From Pseudoxanthomonas sp. PXM01 (GTDB taxonomy: Bacteria; Pseudomonadota; Gammaproteobacteria; Xanthomonadales; Xanthomonadaceae), in contig NZ_JACVAJ010000002.1 in NCBI RefSeq assembly GCF_014851815.1, positions 1,364,001 through 1,428,000 on the forward strand: a stretch of 64,000 nt of DNA. The letters are read 5' to 3'. Position numbers and translations under genes: made by a program. Below, in pieces: positions 20,467 to 25,965 of this stretch (positions within the stretch are counted from its first letter, which is position 1; each line of letters begins with the position of its first letter). The notes under the pieces were generated by a model. That model saw nothing but the letters and a program-made list of their open reading frames with translations. It ran no database searches and was not told the origin of the DNA.

Positions 20467-21528
20467 TCAGCGCCTCGCCTTGGTGGCTGCGATCACCTTG
20501 AAGCCATCGCGTTCGCCGGCCACCCGGATCTCGCCGAAACTGTCGTTCAAGGTCTGCTCGTACGGCAGGTGGCGGTTGGCGACCAGCCACAGCCGGCCAC
20601 CCGGCTTCAGTGCGGCCGCGGCGGCCGTGATGAAGCGCTGGCCGATGTCGGGACGGTCCGCGCGGCTTTGCGTGTGGAATGGCGGATTGCTGACGATGAA
20701 GTCGTAACGCTCCGGCAAACCCCCGGTCACGTCGTGCCAGCGGAAATCGATGCGTACGGAGGAGGCCGCCGCGCCCAGGTTCTCCTTCGCCAGGGACAAG
20801 GCACGTGCCTCTGCCTCGTAGAGATCGAGTGCGGTGATACCCGGGCAGCGTTCGAGCAGGGCCAGCGACAGGAAGCCCCAGCCGGCACCGAGATCGGCGC
20901 CATGGCCGGCGATATCGGCCGGCAGGCATTCGACTAGCAGCGCGGAGGCAGGATCGATGCGATTCCAGGCGAACACACCGGGCCGACTCAGGAAACGGCC
21001 GCCTTCGATGCGGCGTGGCGCATCGAGTGACGACCACTGCTTCAGCAGCGCTTCGCCCGTGCCCTCGCCCAACGGCCGCGTCCAGAACGTGCGACAGTGG
21101 AACTTGGTCAGCGTGCCGGCGATACCCGTGAGCTGCTTCAGGTCCGCCTCGCCCGACTTCGCGCCTTCGTTGTTGGTCATCGCCGCAACGACGATACCGC
21201 CGGGCGCAGCGAGCTGCACGGCGCGCGCCAGCAGTGCGCGCGCTTCCTCGCGCTGTCGCGGCGGCAGCACCAGTACGAGGGGATAACGCACACCGTCTTC
21301 CGCGGCATCCGCGACCACGCGCAAGCCCGCGCGCTCCAACAGTTCGGCATCGGGACGGAAACTCTGTTCGCACACAAGCGATGCAAGCGGAAACTGCCTC
21401 AGCGCCGCGCCATCGCGTGCGCGCAGGAACAGCACCGGCCCGGAAGGCCAAGCGAGCTGGCCCTGCGCGAAGGGCAGCATCAACGCATCAAGGGCGGGAT
21501 CGGAGAATCGGGAGGCCACGGCATGCAC
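20467..21528 (-). CDS. RsmC/RlmG-type class I methyltransferase
   Basis: A 353-residue SAM-dependent methyltransferase. It has an N-terminal degenerate methyltransferase-like half (residues ~1-160) and a catalytic C-terminal half with SAM motif I GHGADLGAGWGFLSLALL and the N6/N2-amino-methyltransferase motif IVSNPPFH. The two-half layout and NPPF motif are characteristic of RsmC and RlmG, which methylate guanines in ribosomal RNA. Neighbouring rsuA supports an rRNA-modification role. The start is taken as GTG at 21528, since the frame upstream is not family-like and no ATG fits; this choice is moderately sure. Confidence 0.85.
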   Translation of the reverse strand: MHAVASRFSDPALDALMLPFAQGQLAWPSGPVLFLRARDGAALRQFPLASLVCEQSFRPDAELLERAGLRVVADAAEDGVRYPLVLVLPPRQREEARALLARAVQLAAPGGIVVAAMTNNEGAKSGEADLKQLTGIAGTLTKFHCRTFWTRPLGEGTGEALLKQWSSLDAPRRIEGGRFLSRPGVFAWNRIDPASALLVECLPADIAGHGADLGAGWGFLSLALLERCPGITALDLYEAEARALSLAKENLGAAASSVRIDFRWHDVTGGLPERYDFIVSNPPFHTQSRADRPDIGQRFITAAAAALKPGGRLWLVANRHLPYEQTLNDSFGEIRVAGERDGFKVIAATKARR

Positions 21529-21621
21529 GCAACGAGAAAGAGGACGCCATTCTAGCGACACGCCCTTCGCTCCATTCGTTGATGCCGCCTGTCGGCCTTT
21601 CGAAAAAAAGTGAAAAAAGTG

Positions 21622-21680
21622 TTGCGCTCCACATTCAAGCGGCGTATCGTGCGCGCCCGTCGGCCCCGTGGCCGTTTTTT
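21622..21680 (+). promoter_or_regulatory. Promoter-like TTGCGC-17-TATCGT and early hairpin with T6
   Basis: A -35-like TTGCGC (21622-21627), a 17-base spacer and TATCGT (21645-21650) point rightward. Immediately after comes CGGCC-CCGT-GGCCG followed by six T (21661-21680), a small terminator-like hairpin at the very 5' end of the expected transcript. It lies 20 bases before the small reading frame at 21700. Confidence 0.5.
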
Positions 21681-21699
21681 CACCAGAAGATTTTTCATC

Positions 21700-21822
21700 A
21701 TGAAGCCCGCCTATTCCTTCGACAGCAAGCTTGCCCTGCAGCCATCGCGCTGCGGCATGGCGCTGCACGCGAATGGGTGCGACCTGCGCGATATAGAACG
21801 CGCGCGGCACCTGATCTTCTGA
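21700..21822 (+). CDS. Possible 40-residue peptide in front of the structured RNA region
   Basis: A 41-codon frame encoding a peptide that starts MKPAYSFDSKLALQPSRC and ends RHLIF. I do not recognise it. It contains two Cys, is mildly basic, has no signal peptide or membrane helix, and a weak purine-rich AGAAGA sits 9 bases before the ATG. A strong hairpin and a terminator follow the stop directly, which resembles either a stand-alone small gene or a leader-peptide/attenuator unit. The frame can be extended upstream to a GTG at 21610, but that would precede the predicted transcription start. It could also be a chance frame. Confidence 0.4.
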   Translation: MKPAYSFDSKLALQPSRCGMALHANGCDLRDIERARHLIF

Positions 21823-21839
21823 CATCCGGCTGACTCCCA

Positions 21840-21913
21840 GGGAGATCGGCCACCCCGATCTCCCGAGGAACGCGAACGCCCTCGGGTCGCACGTCCCGGG
21901 GGCGTTTTGTTTT
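21840..21913 (+). terminator. Hairpin / alternative hairpin / terminator series (attenuator-like)
   Basis: Three overlapping stems are visible. P1: GGGAGATCGG (21840-21849) with CCGATCTCCC (21855-21864). P2: CCCGAGG (21862-21868) with CCTCGGG (21880-21886). P3: AACGCCC..CGGG (21875-21886) with CCCG..GGGCGTT (21895-21906), then TTGTTTT. P3 is a good Rho-independent terminator. P2 shares bases with both P1 and P3, so it could serve as an anti-terminator. The terminator is clear; regulation by switching is inference. Confidence 0.65.
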
Positions 21914-22253
21914 CAGCGTTCGCGGAGGATGCGCATGCATCGACCAGGTTCCATCCATTCCACCACGGAAGTTTCTTTCCGCCCTGGAGCATCCGGGTAG
22001 CGCGTCCGCGCGCCCCGAGGCAGGGGCGCGGCTGCGACCGGCGCATGTGCGCTGCGTTGTGATGCTTCGACGCGAGCGGCGCGGGGAATGGACACCACAC
22101 ACGGGCGCTCTGCGCCTGCACGAATTGCCGGTTGGCGACAGCCGGCAATGCGGAGCATCGATCGAACACGCTACAGCGGTACGGGTTTGTATCCCGTCCG
22201 GTGCGCGCGGCGCTGCCGTGGCGTATGCCGAAGCGTGGGACATGGTGTTCCCC
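21914..22253 (+). other. Structured non-coding region upstream of the tRNA-like elements
   Basis: No convincing reading frame on either strand. Stable hairpins include GGCGC-TCT-GCGCC near 22104-22116, ATTGCCGG (22124-22131) with CCGGCAAT (22142-22149) around a 10-base loop, and CATGG/CCATG at about 22241-22255. A T-arm-like hairpin ACGGG-TTTGTAT-CCCGT lies at 22181-22197, with a seven-base loop of T-arm size but not the TTCRANY consensus. These suggest a folded RNA, possibly a degenerate third tRNA-like unit. Confidence 0.45.
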
Positions 22254-22320
22254 ATGACGATGGCCGAATGGTTAGGCACCAGCGAAAGCTGGGCAAGCCG
22301 GTTCGATTCCGGTACGTCAC
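22254..22320 (+). ncRNA. tRNA-like RNA with GAAA tetraloop in place of the anticodon loop
   Basis: The segment follows tRNA geometry position by position. Acceptor strands 22254-22260 and 22314-22320 form 5 of 7 pairs (TGACG/CGTCA). T8-G9 follow, then a D arm GCC-GAATGGTTA-GGC (22263-22277) with the invariant GG of the D loop, then stem CCAGC/GCTGG (22279-22292) closed by GAAA instead of a 7-base anticodon loop, a 4-base variable region, and a canonical T arm GCCGG-TTCGATT-CCGGT (22297-22313). No CCA is encoded. It cannot decode, so it is best seen as a tRNA mimic, reminiscent of the tRNA-like modules of bacterial Y RNAs that accompany RtcB operons. It abuts the next element without a gap. 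Confidence 0.6.
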
Positions 22321-22393
22321 CTCTGGATAGCTCAGACGGTTAGAGCATCGGTTTCAGATACCGAGTGTCGCGGGTTCGACTCCCGCTCCAACG
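22321..22393 (+). ncRNA. tRNA-like RNA, class I fold with CAG anticodon position
   Basis: A second cloverleaf starts at the next base. T8-A9, D arm GCTC-AGACGGTTA-GAGC (22330-22346), anticodon arm TCGGT-TTCAGAT-ACCGA (22348-22364) with CAG at positions 34-36, a 5-base variable loop and a perfect T arm GCGGG-TTCGACT-CCCGC (22370-22386). The acceptor stem has 5 of 7 pairs with two adjacent mismatches, and the 3' end reads CGCC rather than NCCA. CAG would be a leucine anticodon, yet tRNA-Leu needs a long variable arm, which is absent. It is therefore more likely a decayed tRNA or a dedicated tRNA mimic than a working tRNA-Leu. Confidence 0.65.
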
Positions 22394-22762
22394 CCTGCAA
22401 GGGCACTTGACCTGTCACGTCATGACACCGGGACGCAAGTCCCACCCAGGAAACGCCTCGTGCGGCGTGCCGGCTTCCCGCGATGGAGTGCAGGAAGACG
22501 GAACACCGCAGCGGGGACGGTGCCGGCACCGCGCCCTCGACGCGGATGCGCGAGACGTTCGATGCGATCCCAGGATCGCGTCGCCGCCACGAGGCTTCCG
22601 CCGACAGCGCCGGCTGTCCGCACCGCCTCCGTCCAGGGACGTTTCCACCTTCTTCCGCCAGCCGCATGTCGCGGCCGGCTTCCATCGTCGCGGGATTCGA
22701 TCCACCGCGGCGATGCCGACAAGCCGGATCGAACCACCAGAGCCAACAAGGAGAACAACGCC
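22394..22762 (+). other. Leader of the slipin-rtcB operon, non-coding
   Basis: This 369-base stretch shows no supportable gene. Right after the tRNA-like pair are a TGTCA/TGACA hairpin (22413-22427) and GGGAC-GCAA-GTCCC (22430-22443), another GNRA-capped stem. No sigma-54 -24/-12 element with correct spacing is seen, and no sigma-70 promoter is convincing. An AAGGAG Shine-Dalgarno at 22748-22753 serves the slipin gene. Confidence 0.5.
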
Positions 22763-23881
22763 ATGTTCTGGACCAAGAGGGTCGTGATCGGTGACGGCGA
22801 GCGCGGCCTGGTGTATCGCAACCGTCGGTTCGAGCGCGTGCTCGCACCCGGCGTGTACCGCTGGTTCGACCCGATGGGTCGCACCGAGGTACGCACCTTC
22901 AACATCGCCGCGCCGGAATACGCCGGCCACGACGTTGACGCACTGATCGTCGGCCTGGGCGAGCGCCTGGGCGAGACCTTCGTCTGCGCCGATATCGGGG
23001 TGGACCAGGTCGGCCTGGTGCTGAAGAACGGCAAGCTGGAAGACGTGCTGCCGCCCGGCACGCGGCGCCTGTACTGGATCGGCCTGGTGAAGGTCGAGGT
23101 GCAGGCGGTGACCCTCGCCTCGCTGGAGGTGGATGCCGCCGTCGCGCGTCGTCTGCGCCAGTTGGGCACGCTGTCGAAGCTGGCGGTCGTGGCCGAGGTG
23201 CCGGCGGAGTCCGCCGGTCTGGTGTTCATCGACGGCAAGCTCGAGCGCACGCTTGCGGCAGGCAGCTACGCCTTCTGGAACTTCCGGAAGAACGTGGTGG
23301 TGGATGTGGTCGACCTGCGCGTGCAGACGATCGAGGTATCGGGCCAGGAACTGTTGACCCGCGACAAGGTCAGCCTGCGCGTGAACCTGGCCGCGAGCAC
23401 CCGCGTCACCGACGTGGTGGCCTCGCGCACCAAGGTCGCCAAGGTCGGCGACTTCGTCTACCGCGAGCTGCAGTACGGCCTGCGCAGGGCGGTCTCCGCC
23501 AAGACGCTGGACGAGCTGCTGGGCGACAAGGCCTCGCTCGACGCCGACATCTTTGCGTACGTGCGCGGCCAGTTGAACGGCCTCGGCGTGGAGGTGCTGG
23601 GCGTGGGCGTGAAGGACGTGATCCTGCCGGGCGAGATGAAGGAGATCCTCAACGCGGTGGTGCAGGCGGAGAAGCAGGCGCAAGCCAACGTGATCCGTCG
23701 TCGCGAGGAGGCGAACGCCACGCGTTCCCTGCTCAACACCGCGAAGCTGATCGACGAGTCGCCGGTGCTGATGCGCCTGAAGGAGCTCGAGGCGCTGGAG
23801 AAGGTCACCGAGAAGATCGACAAGCTCACCGTGTTCGGCGGCCTGGATGGCGTGCTGAAGCAGCTGGTGACATTGAAGTAG
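22763..23881 (+). CDS. Slipin (SPFH/Band 7 protein) of the RtcB operon
   Basis: A 372-residue SPFH-domain protein. The C-terminal two thirds (about 145-345) hold the Band-7 core and the AEKQAQANVIRRREEANATR helix that drives oligomerisation. Typical slipins have an N-terminal membrane hairpin; here none is seen. Instead the short beta motif 'GLV..nGkler.L.pG.yrfw' occurs three times (residues 15-35, 84-105, 152-172). SPFH proteins build membrane-associated scaffolds. Slipin genes are known neighbours of rtcB in other bacteria, so a role in RNA repair or stress is likely but unproven. AAGGAG precedes the ATG at 9 bases. Confidence 0.9.
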   Translation: MFWTKRVVIGDGERGLVYRNRRFERVLAPGVYRWFDPMGRTEVRTFNIAAPEYAGHDVDALIVGLGERLGETFVCADIGVDQVGLVLKNGKLEDVLPPGTRRLYWIGLVKVEVQAVTLASLEVDAAVARRLRQLGTLSKLAVVAEVPAESAGLVFIDGKLERTLAAGSYAFWNFRKNVVVDVVDLRVQTIEVSGQELLTRDKVSLRVNLAASTRVTDVVASRTKVAKVGDFVYRELQYGLRRAVSAKTLDELLGDKASLDADIFAYVRGQLNGLGVEVLGVGVKDVILPGEMKEILNAVVQAEKQAQANVIRRREEANATRSLLNTAKLIDESPVLMRLKELEALEKVTEKIDKLTVFGGLDGVLKQLVTLK

Positions 23882-23940
23882 CAAGCCGGGGTGGCCGCAG
23901 GGACGCGGCTGCCACGGCCCCCAAGGACGAAGGACAACCC

Positions 23941-24696
23941 ATGCGGAACGACATGTTCAAGGTCATCGTGGAGCGCCCCCGGCGTGGCGGAAGCTACGCG
24001 CGTGAGCGGGCGCCACACGCACTCGACGAAGGCTCGCCGATGCAGGAAGGCTTGCGGTCGCGCCATCAGCACCGGAGGCATCTCAACGAGAACCTGCGGC
24101 CCCTGGAACGCTACCTGCACCGGCAGGTCGGCAGACCCTGGGACGCCGTGTACTCGGAGATCTGCGCCGGCATCGATCGGCGCAGCACGGTGCAGCAGCA
24201 CATCCATCAGCACCTCGTCGACTTCGTCGCGGTGCGCGTGTCCGTCATCGACGGACGGCTGCACTGGCAGAAGAGGTGGGGCGAGCCCACGCCACTCGCG
24301 GACCGGTGGGCGCCGGCGCTCTACGTGGATCCATCAACCGGGCTGCTGCGCACCAATCGCGAACGCGAGCAAGCGCGGCGGCAGGAGAAGGTGCTGCAGG
24401 CTGCGAAGGTGCTGACGCCGGACCGAGTCGAACTGACGCCGCTGCGGCAGCTGCATCGCCTGCACGGCATCTGGTACGACGTGGATCTCGCGGCGATCCC
24501 CGCGGCGGGCTTCGGCCCCGGAGTCGCCGACGTAGTCCGTCGCTGCATCGTGGTGGCCCATGGCCATCGGGGTGCCGGGCGCGTGGTCTACCACGGCGAT
24601 CATGTGCTCTATGGATGTCGCGATGTGTACGCCCGATCGAAACGACAGCTCGGCGCGCGTGAACTGCGCGCACACGGGCTGTGCAACACGGAATGA
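23941..24696 (+). CDS. Unrecognised protein between slipin and rtcB
   Basis: A 251-residue soluble protein, rich in Arg and His, for which I can name no function. It begins MRNDMFKVIVERPRRGG and contains the striking blocks LNENLRPLERYLHRQVGRPW, DAVYSEICAGI and STVQQHIHQHLVDFV, followed by HLYVDP-like ALYVDPSTG and a C-terminal HGIWYDVDL. The basic N-terminus would suit RNA binding. It lies 59 bases after the slipin gene and 51 bases before rtcB on the same strand, so it is part of the operon and probably belongs to a family tied to RtcB. It has no signal peptide, membrane helix or nuclease motif that I can see. Confidence 0.8.
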   Translation: MRNDMFKVIVERPRRGGSYARERAPHALDEGSPMQEGLRSRHQHRRHLNENLRPLERYLHRQVGRPWDAVYSEICAGIDRRSTVQQHIHQHLVDFVAVRVSVIDGRLHWQKRWGEPTPLADRWAPALYVDPSTGLLRTNREREQARRQEKVLQAAKVLTPDRVELTPLRQLHRLHGIWYDVDLAAIPAAGFGPGVADVVRRCIVVAHGHRGAGRVVYHGDHVLYGCRDVYARSKRQLGARELRAHGLCNTE

Positions 24697-24747: not shown

Positions 24748-25965
24748 ATGAGTAGTCAATTCGAACTGCTGCACGCCGAGGGCAGCACCACGCCGATCAA
24801 GGGCTGGGTGCGCGGTGTGCCGCTGGAACAGCAAGCCCACGAGCAGCTGCGCAACATCGCGTCCATCCCGTTCGTGGGGCCGTGGGTCGCAGTGATGCCC
24901 GACGTGCACCTGGGCAAGGGCGCGACCGTGGGTTCGGTCATCCCGACCCGTGGCGCGATCATCCCGGCCGCGGTCGGCGTGGACATCGGCTGCGGCATGG
25001 CCGCGGTGCGTACCACGCTGCGCGCGAAGGACCTGCCCGACAGTCTGGCGCAGCTGCGTTCCAGCATCGAGCGCAGCGTGCCGGTCGGCAACGGCCGCGG
25101 CGGCGAACACTGGAAGCTGCCCGACGGCATCGCAACCCGCATCGCGCAGTCGGGGCTCGAACAGCGCCTGGACACGATCAAGCAGAAGCACCGCAGGATC
25201 CGTACCGACAAGCTCGGCTGCCAGATCGGCACGCTGGGCGGTGGCAACCACTTCATCGAGCTCTGTCTCGACGAAAGCGACGCCGTCTGGGTGATGCTGC
25301 ACAGCGGTTCGCGCGGCACCGGCAACCTGATCGGCACCTACTTCATCGAGCAGGCGCGCAGGCAGCTCGAGCACCGCGTGCTCGGCTTCCACCTGCCGGA
25401 CAAGGACCTCGCGTTCTTCATGCAGGGCGAGCCGCTGTTCGATGACTACGTGGAGGCCGTGTCGTGGGCGCAGGACTACGCCCGGGAGAACCGCGAGGCG
25501 ATGATGTCGCGCGTGCTGGCCGAGATGCGTCACCGCCTGCCGAAGTTCCAGTTGGAGAAGATGGTGGTCAACTGCCACCACAACTACGTGCAGAAGGAAA
25601 AGCACGGCGGCGAGGAGCTGCTGGTCACCCGCAAGGGCGCGGTGAGCGCGCGTGCCGGCGAGCTGGGGATCATCCCCGGCAGCATGGGCGCGAAGAGCTT
25701 CATCGTGCGCGGCAAGGGCAATGGCGACAGCTTCCACAGCTGCAGCCACGGCGCAGGCCGCGTGATGAGCCGTACCGCCGCGCGCCAGCAGATCACGCTG
25801 TCGCAGCACCGCGAGGCCACGGCGCACGTCGAATGCCGCAAGGACGCCGGCGTGATCGACGAATCGCCGGCCGCCTACAAGGACATCGATGCGGTCATGG
25901 CCGCGCAGTCCGACCTGGTGGAGGTGGTCCATACGCTGCGCCAGGTGGTGTGCATCAAGGGGTGA
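24748..25965 (+). CDS. rtcB: RNA-splicing ligase RtcB
   Basis: A 405-residue GTP- and Mn2+-dependent RNA ligase that joins 2',3'-cyclic-phosphate or 3'-phosphate ends to 5'-OH ends. It matches the E. coli enzyme (408 residues) throughout. Metal ligands are visible in VDIGCGM (Asp79, Cys82), GGGNHFIE (His168), LHSGSRG (His185) and CHHNY (His277/278); the guanylylated His is His334 in SCSHGAGR. All catalytic residues are intact. Unlike E. coli there is no rtcA cyclase or sigma-54 regulator rtcR nearby; the partners here are a slipin, an unknown protein and upstream tRNA-like RNAs. A Shine-Dalgarno AAGGAG precedes the ATG and a terminator overlaps the stop. Confidence 0.98.
   Translation: MSSQFELLHAEGSTTPIKGWVRGVPLEQQAHEQLRNIASIPFVGPWVAVMPDVHLGKGATVGSVIPTRGAIIPAAVGVDIGCGMAAVRTTLRAKDLPDSLAQLRSSIERSVPVGNGRGGEHWKLPDGIATRIAQSGLEQRLDTIKQKHRRIRTDKLGCQIGTLGGGNHFIELCLDESDAVWVMLHSGSRGTGNLIGTYFIEQARRQLEHRVLGFHLPDKDLAFFMQGEPLFDDYVEAVSWAQDYARENREAMMSRVLAEMRHRLPKFQLEKMVVNCHHNYVQKEKHGGEELLVTRKGAVSARAGELGIIPGSMGAKSFIVRGKGNGDSFHSCSHGAGRVMSRTAARQQITLSQHREATAHVECRKDAGVIDESPAAYKDIDAVMAAQSDLVEVVHTLRQVVCIKG

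Follow-up and report, generated by a model that had tools for sequence, protein, structure and literature searches.

Burroughs and Aravind reportedly proposed in 2016 a tRNA-like molecule as a partner of SPFH/Band-7 modules within RNA-repair systems, which is apparently the same Band-7/tRNA-like RNA association as the one analyzed here. To our knowledge, that proposal mentions no tandem units, large covarying RNA, free anticodon, 3′ domain, leader attenuator or reduced forms. We also know of no slipin that binds RNA. Large ornate RNAs such as GOLLD, ROOL and OLE are structured over several hundred nucleotides and some of them have tRNAs nearby. The present element differs from these in that Rfam 15 at gathering thresholds reports tRNA as the sole match in the window (the whole stretch of 64,000 nucleotides that was analyzed), weaker matches lying under the cut-offs.

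Related systems are described in those parts of the published reports that were accessible to us. RtcR systems respond to damaged tRNAs (PMC7790460, PMC11090510). The RtcR-type operon rsr-yrlBA-rtcBA resembles the present locus, since a non-coding RNA with a tRNA-like domain, YrlA, lies beside repair genes (PMC7790460); unlike YrlA, the RNA described here has two tandem units, a slipin partner, a length of ~670 nt and its own core. RlaP is predicted to restore nucleotides prior to ligation (PMC7824862), and the rtc locus of P. aeruginosa includes an SPFH gene (PMC13086221). In the TrcR regulon of Anabaena, one repressor acts on slipin, a neighbour gene, rtcB and a 26-tRNA array, and this regulon is linked to translational stress, as tRNA-array and rtcB reporters respond to translation inhibitors; the differences are a protein repressor, separate loci and annotated tRNA genes instead of mimics (PMC10272220). 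Finally, the leader peptide PA5471.1 is proposed to control armZ, the gene of an RtcB-like protein, by ribosome-responsive attenuation, but gene and leader are others than here and the accessible part of the report describes no tRNA-like RNA (PMC12057347). Among the matches listed from the open-licence literature, available to us in part, there was no description of tandem tRNA mimics, a large RNA or an attenuator before slipin-rtcB.

The window comes from Pseudoxanthomonas sp. PXM01, whose closest named relative is Pseudoxanthomonas sp. PXM02 with 97% slipin identity (among the best 80 of 95 loci, with very near records possibly left out). On the + strand, two tRNA-like units are followed in 3′ direction by slipin (SPFH/Band 7; 22763..23881; PF01145, 4.6e-31), an accessory ORF of 251 aa (23941..24696) and the RtcB RNA ligase gene (24748..25965; PF01139, 9.7e-126). 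A tRNA-like RNA thus adjoins a Band-7 gene in an RNA-repair operon, and the tie to such an operon, which had been predicted from the sequence, holds: rtcB lies 3′ of slipin in 75/80 loci (best 80 of 95). The accessory ORF between them has no match in Pfam or NCBIfam and is present at six of the 80 slipin loci (best 80 of 95). An rsmC-like gene is nearby at just 20/80 slipin loci (best 80 of 95), which is why the RNA is seen as travelling with slipin-rtcB. The best 80 of 95 loci, kept from a slipin profile search of named genomes, belong to Pseudoxanthomonas, Xanthomonas, Lysobacter, Luteimonas, Rhodanobacter, Dyella, Frateuria, Chiayiivirga and MAGs.

As judged by comparing these loci, both units are parts of one covarying RNA of ~670 nt (21983-22655) directly 5′ of slipin-rtcB. 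Together with the sequences in front of it, the whole feature covers about 21622-22655 and exceeds the segment first noted. The RNA begins with a 5′ structured domain (21983..22086, + strand; RNAalifold with covariation, 80 sequences, best 80 of 95), followed on the same strand by a hairpin ATTGCCGG...CCGGCAAT (22124..22149; two-sided changes at 7/7 modelled pairs in 77 sequences) and by a three-way-junction core with near-invariant CCGGTGCG...CGTATGCC (22151..22252), which is captured by covariance model R1. Behind the units, RNAalifold places two small hairpins (22407..22443, + strand) at 22407-22423 and 22430-22443, the latter with a GCAA loop. The 3′ domain (22449..22646, + strand) is closed by a helix of GGAAACGCC (22449-22457) and GACGTTTCC (22638-22646), and the 3′ end of the RNA is placed near 22655 because a pyrimidine-rich tract comes after this domain.

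Model R1 was built from the window and 33 named loci. It matches 77/80 slipin loci (best 80 of 95) at E<=0.001, with a single match per locus that lies on the slipin strand; among the non-seed loci, 44/47 are matched (33 of the 77 being seeds; best 80 of 95). Two of the three loci without a match (L078, L109) end too early, and the third has other sequence. This third one, L093 of Xanthomonas axonopodis DSM 3585, has unrelated sequence followed by the last part of unit 1 and by unit 2, either because part of the RNA was lost naturally or because of an assembly artefact. In the 77 matches, whose alignment had been fitted to the R1 model, 95.6% of the cells pair in the core versus 80.7% after shuffling, and 467 two-sided changes stand against 122 in shuffled alignments and 49-91 with slid partners. 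For the closing helix of the 3′ domain, each side was picked by likeness to its own consensus, pairing being unused. It forms 8/9 pairs in the window (consensus in relatives GGAAACGCC/GRCGTTTCC) and 9/9 in 67/86 loci (shuffled mean 47.8, max 55); of 42 deviating loci, 23 pair 9/9 (shuffled mean 12.0, max 18). Folded as one piece, 674 nt give a z of -3.42 over 20 shuffles, with a minimum-energy fold that differs from the comparative one.

Two tRNA-like segments with tRNA-type D and T arms had been predicted within this RNA, and both are found. Unit 1 (22255..22320, + strand) has a GAAA loop replacing the anticodon loop, and unit 2 (22324..22390, + strand) a 4-bp acceptor and a hypervariable anticodon. 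Their D and T arms carry tRNA sequence and agree with Rfam, the parse and the alignment. The predicted CCAGC-GAAA-GCTGG arm of unit 1 is confirmed; at this place, other short loops are frequent among relatives, and some relatives have a full loop (by eye). Unit 2 is recognized as ‘tRNA-Leu CAG’ by ARAGORN (22321-22395) and as tRNA by Rfam (22324-22390, 51.3 bits); unit 1 obtains no tRNA call from ARAGORN or the Rfam tRNA model. The acceptor strands, described at first as 7 bases long, had to be shortened: unit 1 pairs 5 bp in the window (TGACG/CGTCA) and unit 2 pairs 4 (TGGA/TCCA). In relatives, unit 1 is modelled with 6 pairs (92.7% of cells paired; two-sided changes at 6/6 pairs in 66 loci), and its acceptor looks 7 bp long in two loci of other lineages (L121 and L150, by eye). 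The unit 2 acceptor is kept in 66/66 aligned loci, with U-G in two, under a parse that itself demanded TGGA. The tRNA combination of a 7-bp acceptor and a 3′ CCA is absent from Xanthomonadales-type loci. That CCA is lacking is correct for the units of the window and incorrect for many relatives, in which ACCAC follows unit 1. A search for tmRNA yielded no gene call and a model fragment of 9.6 bits only.

Could such a pair arise by chance? In the 64-kb window, exactly two 5-bp T-arms exist on the + strand, both in the units, and none on the - strand. At the slipin loci (best 80 of 95), 141 T-arms were counted in 78,264 nt of leader on the slipin strand versus 4 in 1,766,470 nt outside the leaders on both strands. 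Because T-arms concentrate in slipin leaders and only two occur in the window, the unit pair is not a chance motif. A strict tandem pair is present in 63/77 long leaders, and tolerating one mismatch raises this to 73/77 (best 80 of 95 loci). Folded alone, the 171-nt stretch is unremarkable (z -1.01; 37/200 shuffles as good) and its minimum-energy fold lacks the unit 1 cloverleaf; the case for the units therefore rests on comparison. With the structure set beforehand, 98.0% of the cells pair in a MAFFT alignment of 66 loci (A4: the window and 65 of 74 parsed named loci) versus 88.6% after shuffling, and 204 two-sided changes compare with 54 in shuffled and 8-35 in slid controls. Compensating changes in orthologues, which the original prediction had set as its test, are thus found.

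Kinship with Y RNAs was also part of that prediction and did not hold up. The Rfam YrlA model gives 20.7 bits versus a cut-off of 69 (30.7 at best, in seven loci of another class), and Ro60/TROVE (PF05731) has no match in the own genome, the control Deinobacterium chartae being positive. On these grounds membership in the Y RNA/YrlA family was rejected.

The linkage to slipin was followed in several genome sets. Besides the own genome, 27/60 genomes of relatives match over both units (loci L004-L027 and L030-L032); remaining matches were set aside, judged by ARAGORN or covering only unit 2. Slipin stands beside the element in all 28 loci, own included. In 149 genomes of the family, the RNA is present in 45, slipin above 300 bits in 48 and both in 44; RNA and slipin are 341-817 nt apart on one contig in 43 of these 44 and on two contigs in the other (G467). 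Slipin without RNA was recorded in 4/149 genomes: G540 and G565 are contig-edge cases, and G455 and G559 have divergent slipins. By eye, G559 possesses a diverged core with units (L127), and no recognizable RNA was seen at the slipin of G455. The reverse case occurs in 1/149 (G475, 33.6 bits).

Outside the family, R1 matches 8/398 genomes in a phylum-wide search. In another family, of another class and probably alphaproteobacterial, it matches 7/120 genomes, with slipin within about 600 nt in 6/7. A slipin-only search of the 398 genomes gave 17 loci outside Xanthomonadales, among them L159 and L163, already known from the R1 search. Counting T-arms with at least 4 of 5 pairs, 14/17 have at least two T-arms 65-77 nt apart upstream and two have one; L159 lies at a contig start. 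Among 24 loci obtained independently of R1 (7 of 31 were left out as found with R1 or repeating such a place), R1 finds the core in 15, in 7 of them at E<0.001. No rtcB is listed for the regions in E. coli and Citrobacter (the PLSDB gene tables are incomplete), and L122, from another class, has none within its 13 kb; slipin is a steadier partner of the RNA than RtcB. A phage origin was rejected: slipin has no tblastn match in phages, the RNA query matches 28 phage records with a coverage of at most 21% among the matches listed (20), mostly at annotated tRNAs, and the exact core pattern occurs 0 times in viral contigs.

Distant lineages carry reduced forms, all described by eye. In Burkholderia stagnalis, unit 1 is shortened to its acceptor and T-arm, and unit 2 is fuller. 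A single T-arm remains in E. coli and in Citrobacter, and Subdoligranulum (Clostridia) shows two T-arms after a recognizable core. The anticodon arm is absent from unit 1 of Burkholderia and from E. coli, Citrobacter and Subdoligranulum. Because of these reduced forms, the shared part is taken to be the T-arms, usually with the core, and not the anticodon arm. The E. coli island of leader, slipin and RlaP lies between yjbD and lysC (L164, L136), and the leader-slipin query is covered to 80% or more in 1621/5426 complete E. coli genomes (~30%), so that laboratory tests become easier. In E. coli strain WAT, a zeta-toxin family gene lies beside this island. The slipin ORF of B. stagnalis (L113, 2559-4151) contains an internal tandem duplication; a B. 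cenocepacia slipin match has single-copy length, unlike this duplicated one.

In several of these lineages a sigma54-type site precedes the RNA, namely in E. coli, Citrobacter, Burkholderia and five further relatives. Such sites were found upstream of the T-arms in L148-L152, L136, L137 and L140, and by eye in L113, which the scan missed as its upstream stretch had been cut at the wrong slipin copy. They amount to 5/17 slipin-search loci and 3/6 plasmid-collection loci, with a background of 1 per 128 kb. In Citrobacter (L137), where rtcR is divergent to leader, slipin and RlaP, both RtcR and a -24/-12 promoter are present; neither E. coli stretch (L164, L136) has an annotated rtcR. The own genome has no RtcR match (PF06956), and a scan of 21231-24103 that tolerated 2 mismatches finds no sigma54 site at its locus. 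RtcR/sigma54 control of the own locus was rejected for the lack of both.

Upstream of the RNA, the Xanthomonadales-type loci have another arrangement. A promoter-like TTGCGC-N17-TATCGT lies at 21622..21650 (+ strand). Its agreement with the sigma70 consensus is poor and a consensus promoter scan finds none here, so the call rests on conservation: TTGCvN-N16..18-TANNNT is found upstream in 69/77 loci, with a spacer of 17 in 68/69, compared with 3/1505 background windows. Then follows a leader ORF of 40 codons (MKPAYSFDSKLALQPSRCGMALHANGCDLRDIERARHLIF and stop; 21700..21822, + strand), conserved in position. In 76/77 loci there is an ATG leader ORF of 28-50 codons, with its stop codon beginning 13-26 nt ahead of the hairpin motif; shuffled upstream DNA with the real stop region gives a mean of 14.6 and a maximum of 23 of 77. 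A further count puts the leader stop 13-24 nt ahead of the hairpin, a spacing that departs from the classical trp arrangement. A second terminator-like hairpin with T6 (21661-21674) lies 5′ of this ORF and 3′ of the promoter-like motif.

Four pairing segments come after the leader stop. Segments 1:2 (GGGAGATCGG / CCGATCTCCC) form the attenuator hairpin (21840..21864, + strand), whose motif recurs in 76/77 loci with at most 2 edits and has one match in the own genome. The alternative antiterminator pairing 2:3 (21862..21886, + strand) joins CCCGAGG (21862-21868) with CCTCGGG (21880-21886), and segments 3:4 with a T tract form an intrinsic terminator (21874..21911, + strand; terminator scan), which is also present where the upstream gene is not rsmC-like. 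The fold of 21836-21912 has a z of -5.58. Of the 77 loci, 72 could be parsed. Here the variable base of segment 3 finds a partner in segment 2 at 70 loci (37 G-C, 33 A-U) and in segment 4 at 57 (37 G-C, 20 A-U), the other 15 having no such pair with segment 4; the triples are C-G-C in 37, T-A-T in 20, T-A-G in 9 and others in 6. Pairing between the leader end and segment 1 reaches -11.3 kcal/mol, versus -7.7 kcal/mol for shuffled sequences, and lies below the shuffled mean in 66/75 loci (L088 and L112 left out). A leader ORF, alternative hairpins and an intrinsic terminator make up the anatomy of a ribosome-mediated attenuator, and the RNA stands behind such a leader and four-segment attenuator in 76/77 Xanthomonadales-type loci (best 80 of 95). 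The switch is probably a ribosome-controlled attenuation with upstream stalling as ‘on’ signal.

Selection at the amino-acid level, as expected for an attenuator leader, is absent. The leader ORF shows no codon-position bias (75/70/76 changes by position, p 0.87), on which ground a conserved leader protein was rejected; such selection would be dispensable for a sensor that responds to stalling at whichever codon. Leaders use 16.8 distinct residues versus 14.5 in slipin windows. Their excess over shuffling is 1.52 and slipin windows match it with 0.92-2.43, so that the near-complete amino-acid content of the leader is only suggestive.

Comparison shows a conserved structure, a same-strand position before slipin, a conserved promoter-like motif, a leader ORF and alternative pairings of the attenuator. 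On this basis we favor, tentatively but as a reading that may well be right, a large non-coding RNA that precedes slipin-rtcB and shares a transcription unit with these genes, with an attenuator opened by stalling and a role as tRNA-elbow scaffold or bait. Ribosomes that complete the leader ORF would cover its end, 1:2 would form and the 3:4 terminator would halt transcription. If ribosomes stall in the leader, e.g. as tRNAs are cut or uncharged, the free ORF end would pair with segment 1; 2:3 could then form and transcription would read through, yielding the RNA together with slipin and RtcB. The RNA would display tRNA elbows (T-arms, usually in tandem) that may gather proteins handling tRNA ends, RtcB or in other lineages RlaP, with the slipin assembly. 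We infer this mechanism, including by analogy the scaffold role of the RNA, because RtcR answers damaged tRNAs and because of the RlaP prediction, the P. aeruginosa SPFH gene and the Anabaena co-regulation. Several results speak against it: the leader peptide is not under selection, its stop is spaced otherwise than in trp, segment 3 fails to pair with segment 4 at its variable base in 15/72 loci, the promoter is weak by consensus, the units alone fold no better than shuffles, and G455 has a slipin for which no RNA was found. A wider version appears doubtful as a whole: a tRNA-damage response free of a protein sensor, in which stalling at any leader codon reports the loss of any tRNA and opens the terminator, the tandem tRNA-mimic RNA, a membrane slipin scaffold and RtcB form a repair particle, and RtcR/sigma54 and the attenuator are interchangeable triggers across bacteria.

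Alternatively, the tRNA mimic may be a cis operator to which free RtcB or slipin binds, lowering its own expression, until damaged tRNAs compete and relieve the repression. The same-strand position before slipin across classes would agree with this, as would the fact that 149 genomes include one weak RNA match without slipin (G475) and one case on different contigs (G467). We nevertheless consider an operator rather unlikely, since the 334 to 673 nt from unit 2 to the slipin start (74 loci) and a whole closed 3′ domain between them are odd for one, and several loci have no rtcB found nearby. Still less probable is a precursor from which RNase P and other enzymes free stable, trans-acting tRNA-like small RNAs: the acceptor of unit 2 measures only 4 bp, and core and closed 3′ domain are conserved together with the units, even if abutting units with T-arm and acceptor, the CCA after unit 1 in many relatives and three units in a row at one locus (L161) look like a precursor.

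The remaining two explanations depend on unit 2 and its anticodon. Unit 2 was parsed in 86/92 loci, leaving out L078 and L109, whose sequence ends early, and L086, L090, L097 and L098, which deviate in the T-loop or at positions 8-10. A locus was parsed only with TGGA, TCC/TCT and a matching T-loop, D-stem and T-stem sequences being left free; near-zero entropy at the required positions is therefore partly selection. Entropy is near 0 in the D and T stems and reaches 1.96 of 2 bits at position 34 and 1.80 bits at position 35. The anticodon loop has 7 nt in 78/86 loci, with 63 distinct loops among 86; in the 78 seven-nt loops, U33 occurs in 53, A37 in 68, and 29 different triplets are seen. The invariant U33 and conserved anticodon of a tRNA are hence missing, and decoding by unit 2 is very unlikely because position 34 is near-random and U33 is present in only 53/78.

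Decayed or ordinary tRNA genes are almost certainly the wrong explanation. ARAGORN and Rfam do call unit 2 a tRNA, and certain loci of other classes give tRNA scores for unit 1 as well as unit 2. Against this, the body is near-invariant with a free anticodon and is conserved widely ahead of slipin, and a canonical tRNA-Leu CAG exists at another place in the genome (L201). Ordinary tRNA was rejected on the loop statistics, the free anticodon and this separate tRNA, and with the short acceptors the units are mimics rather than normal tRNAs, as had been predicted. A variable loop of mostly constant length on near-constant stems is also what a sacrificial decoy or sentinel for anticodon nucleases would show, unit 2 offering a cleavable loop that RtcB mends. 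A decoy, raised at the outset for the repair system, has in this form become improbable. The loop of unit 1 is often short and the arm is missing in the reduced forms, so the anticodon arm cannot be the shared function; moreover, the YrlA mimic of Salmonella is reported as uncut in the accessible part of the source (PMC7790460).

With this element, the question of which role SPFH/slipin proteins play in RNA-repair operons gains a concrete RNA that can be tested. The element also links RtcR-sigma54 and a leader attenuator, two possible ways to sense translation damage, to one RNA. The element itself is easily mis-called, as Rfam 15 at gathering thresholds sees tRNA only and ARAGORN names tRNAs of many identities at the equivalent place in relatives.

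Some single loci depart from the common architecture. L161 (G067, same class) contains three tRNA-like units in tandem with T-arms 71 nt apart. In L128 (G582), an inverted-repeat insertion of ~155 nt sits in a hairpin of the core between otherwise recognizable halves and seems to be tolerated by the RNA. An inverted repeat in L131 (1221-1300) yields sub-cut-off hits to microRNA models on both strands, probably as an artefact of a long hairpin. Lastly, three loci of family f65 (L120, L132 and L135) share a GTTGC...GCAAC palindrome ~100 nt 5′ of the core, possibly the operator of another regulator.
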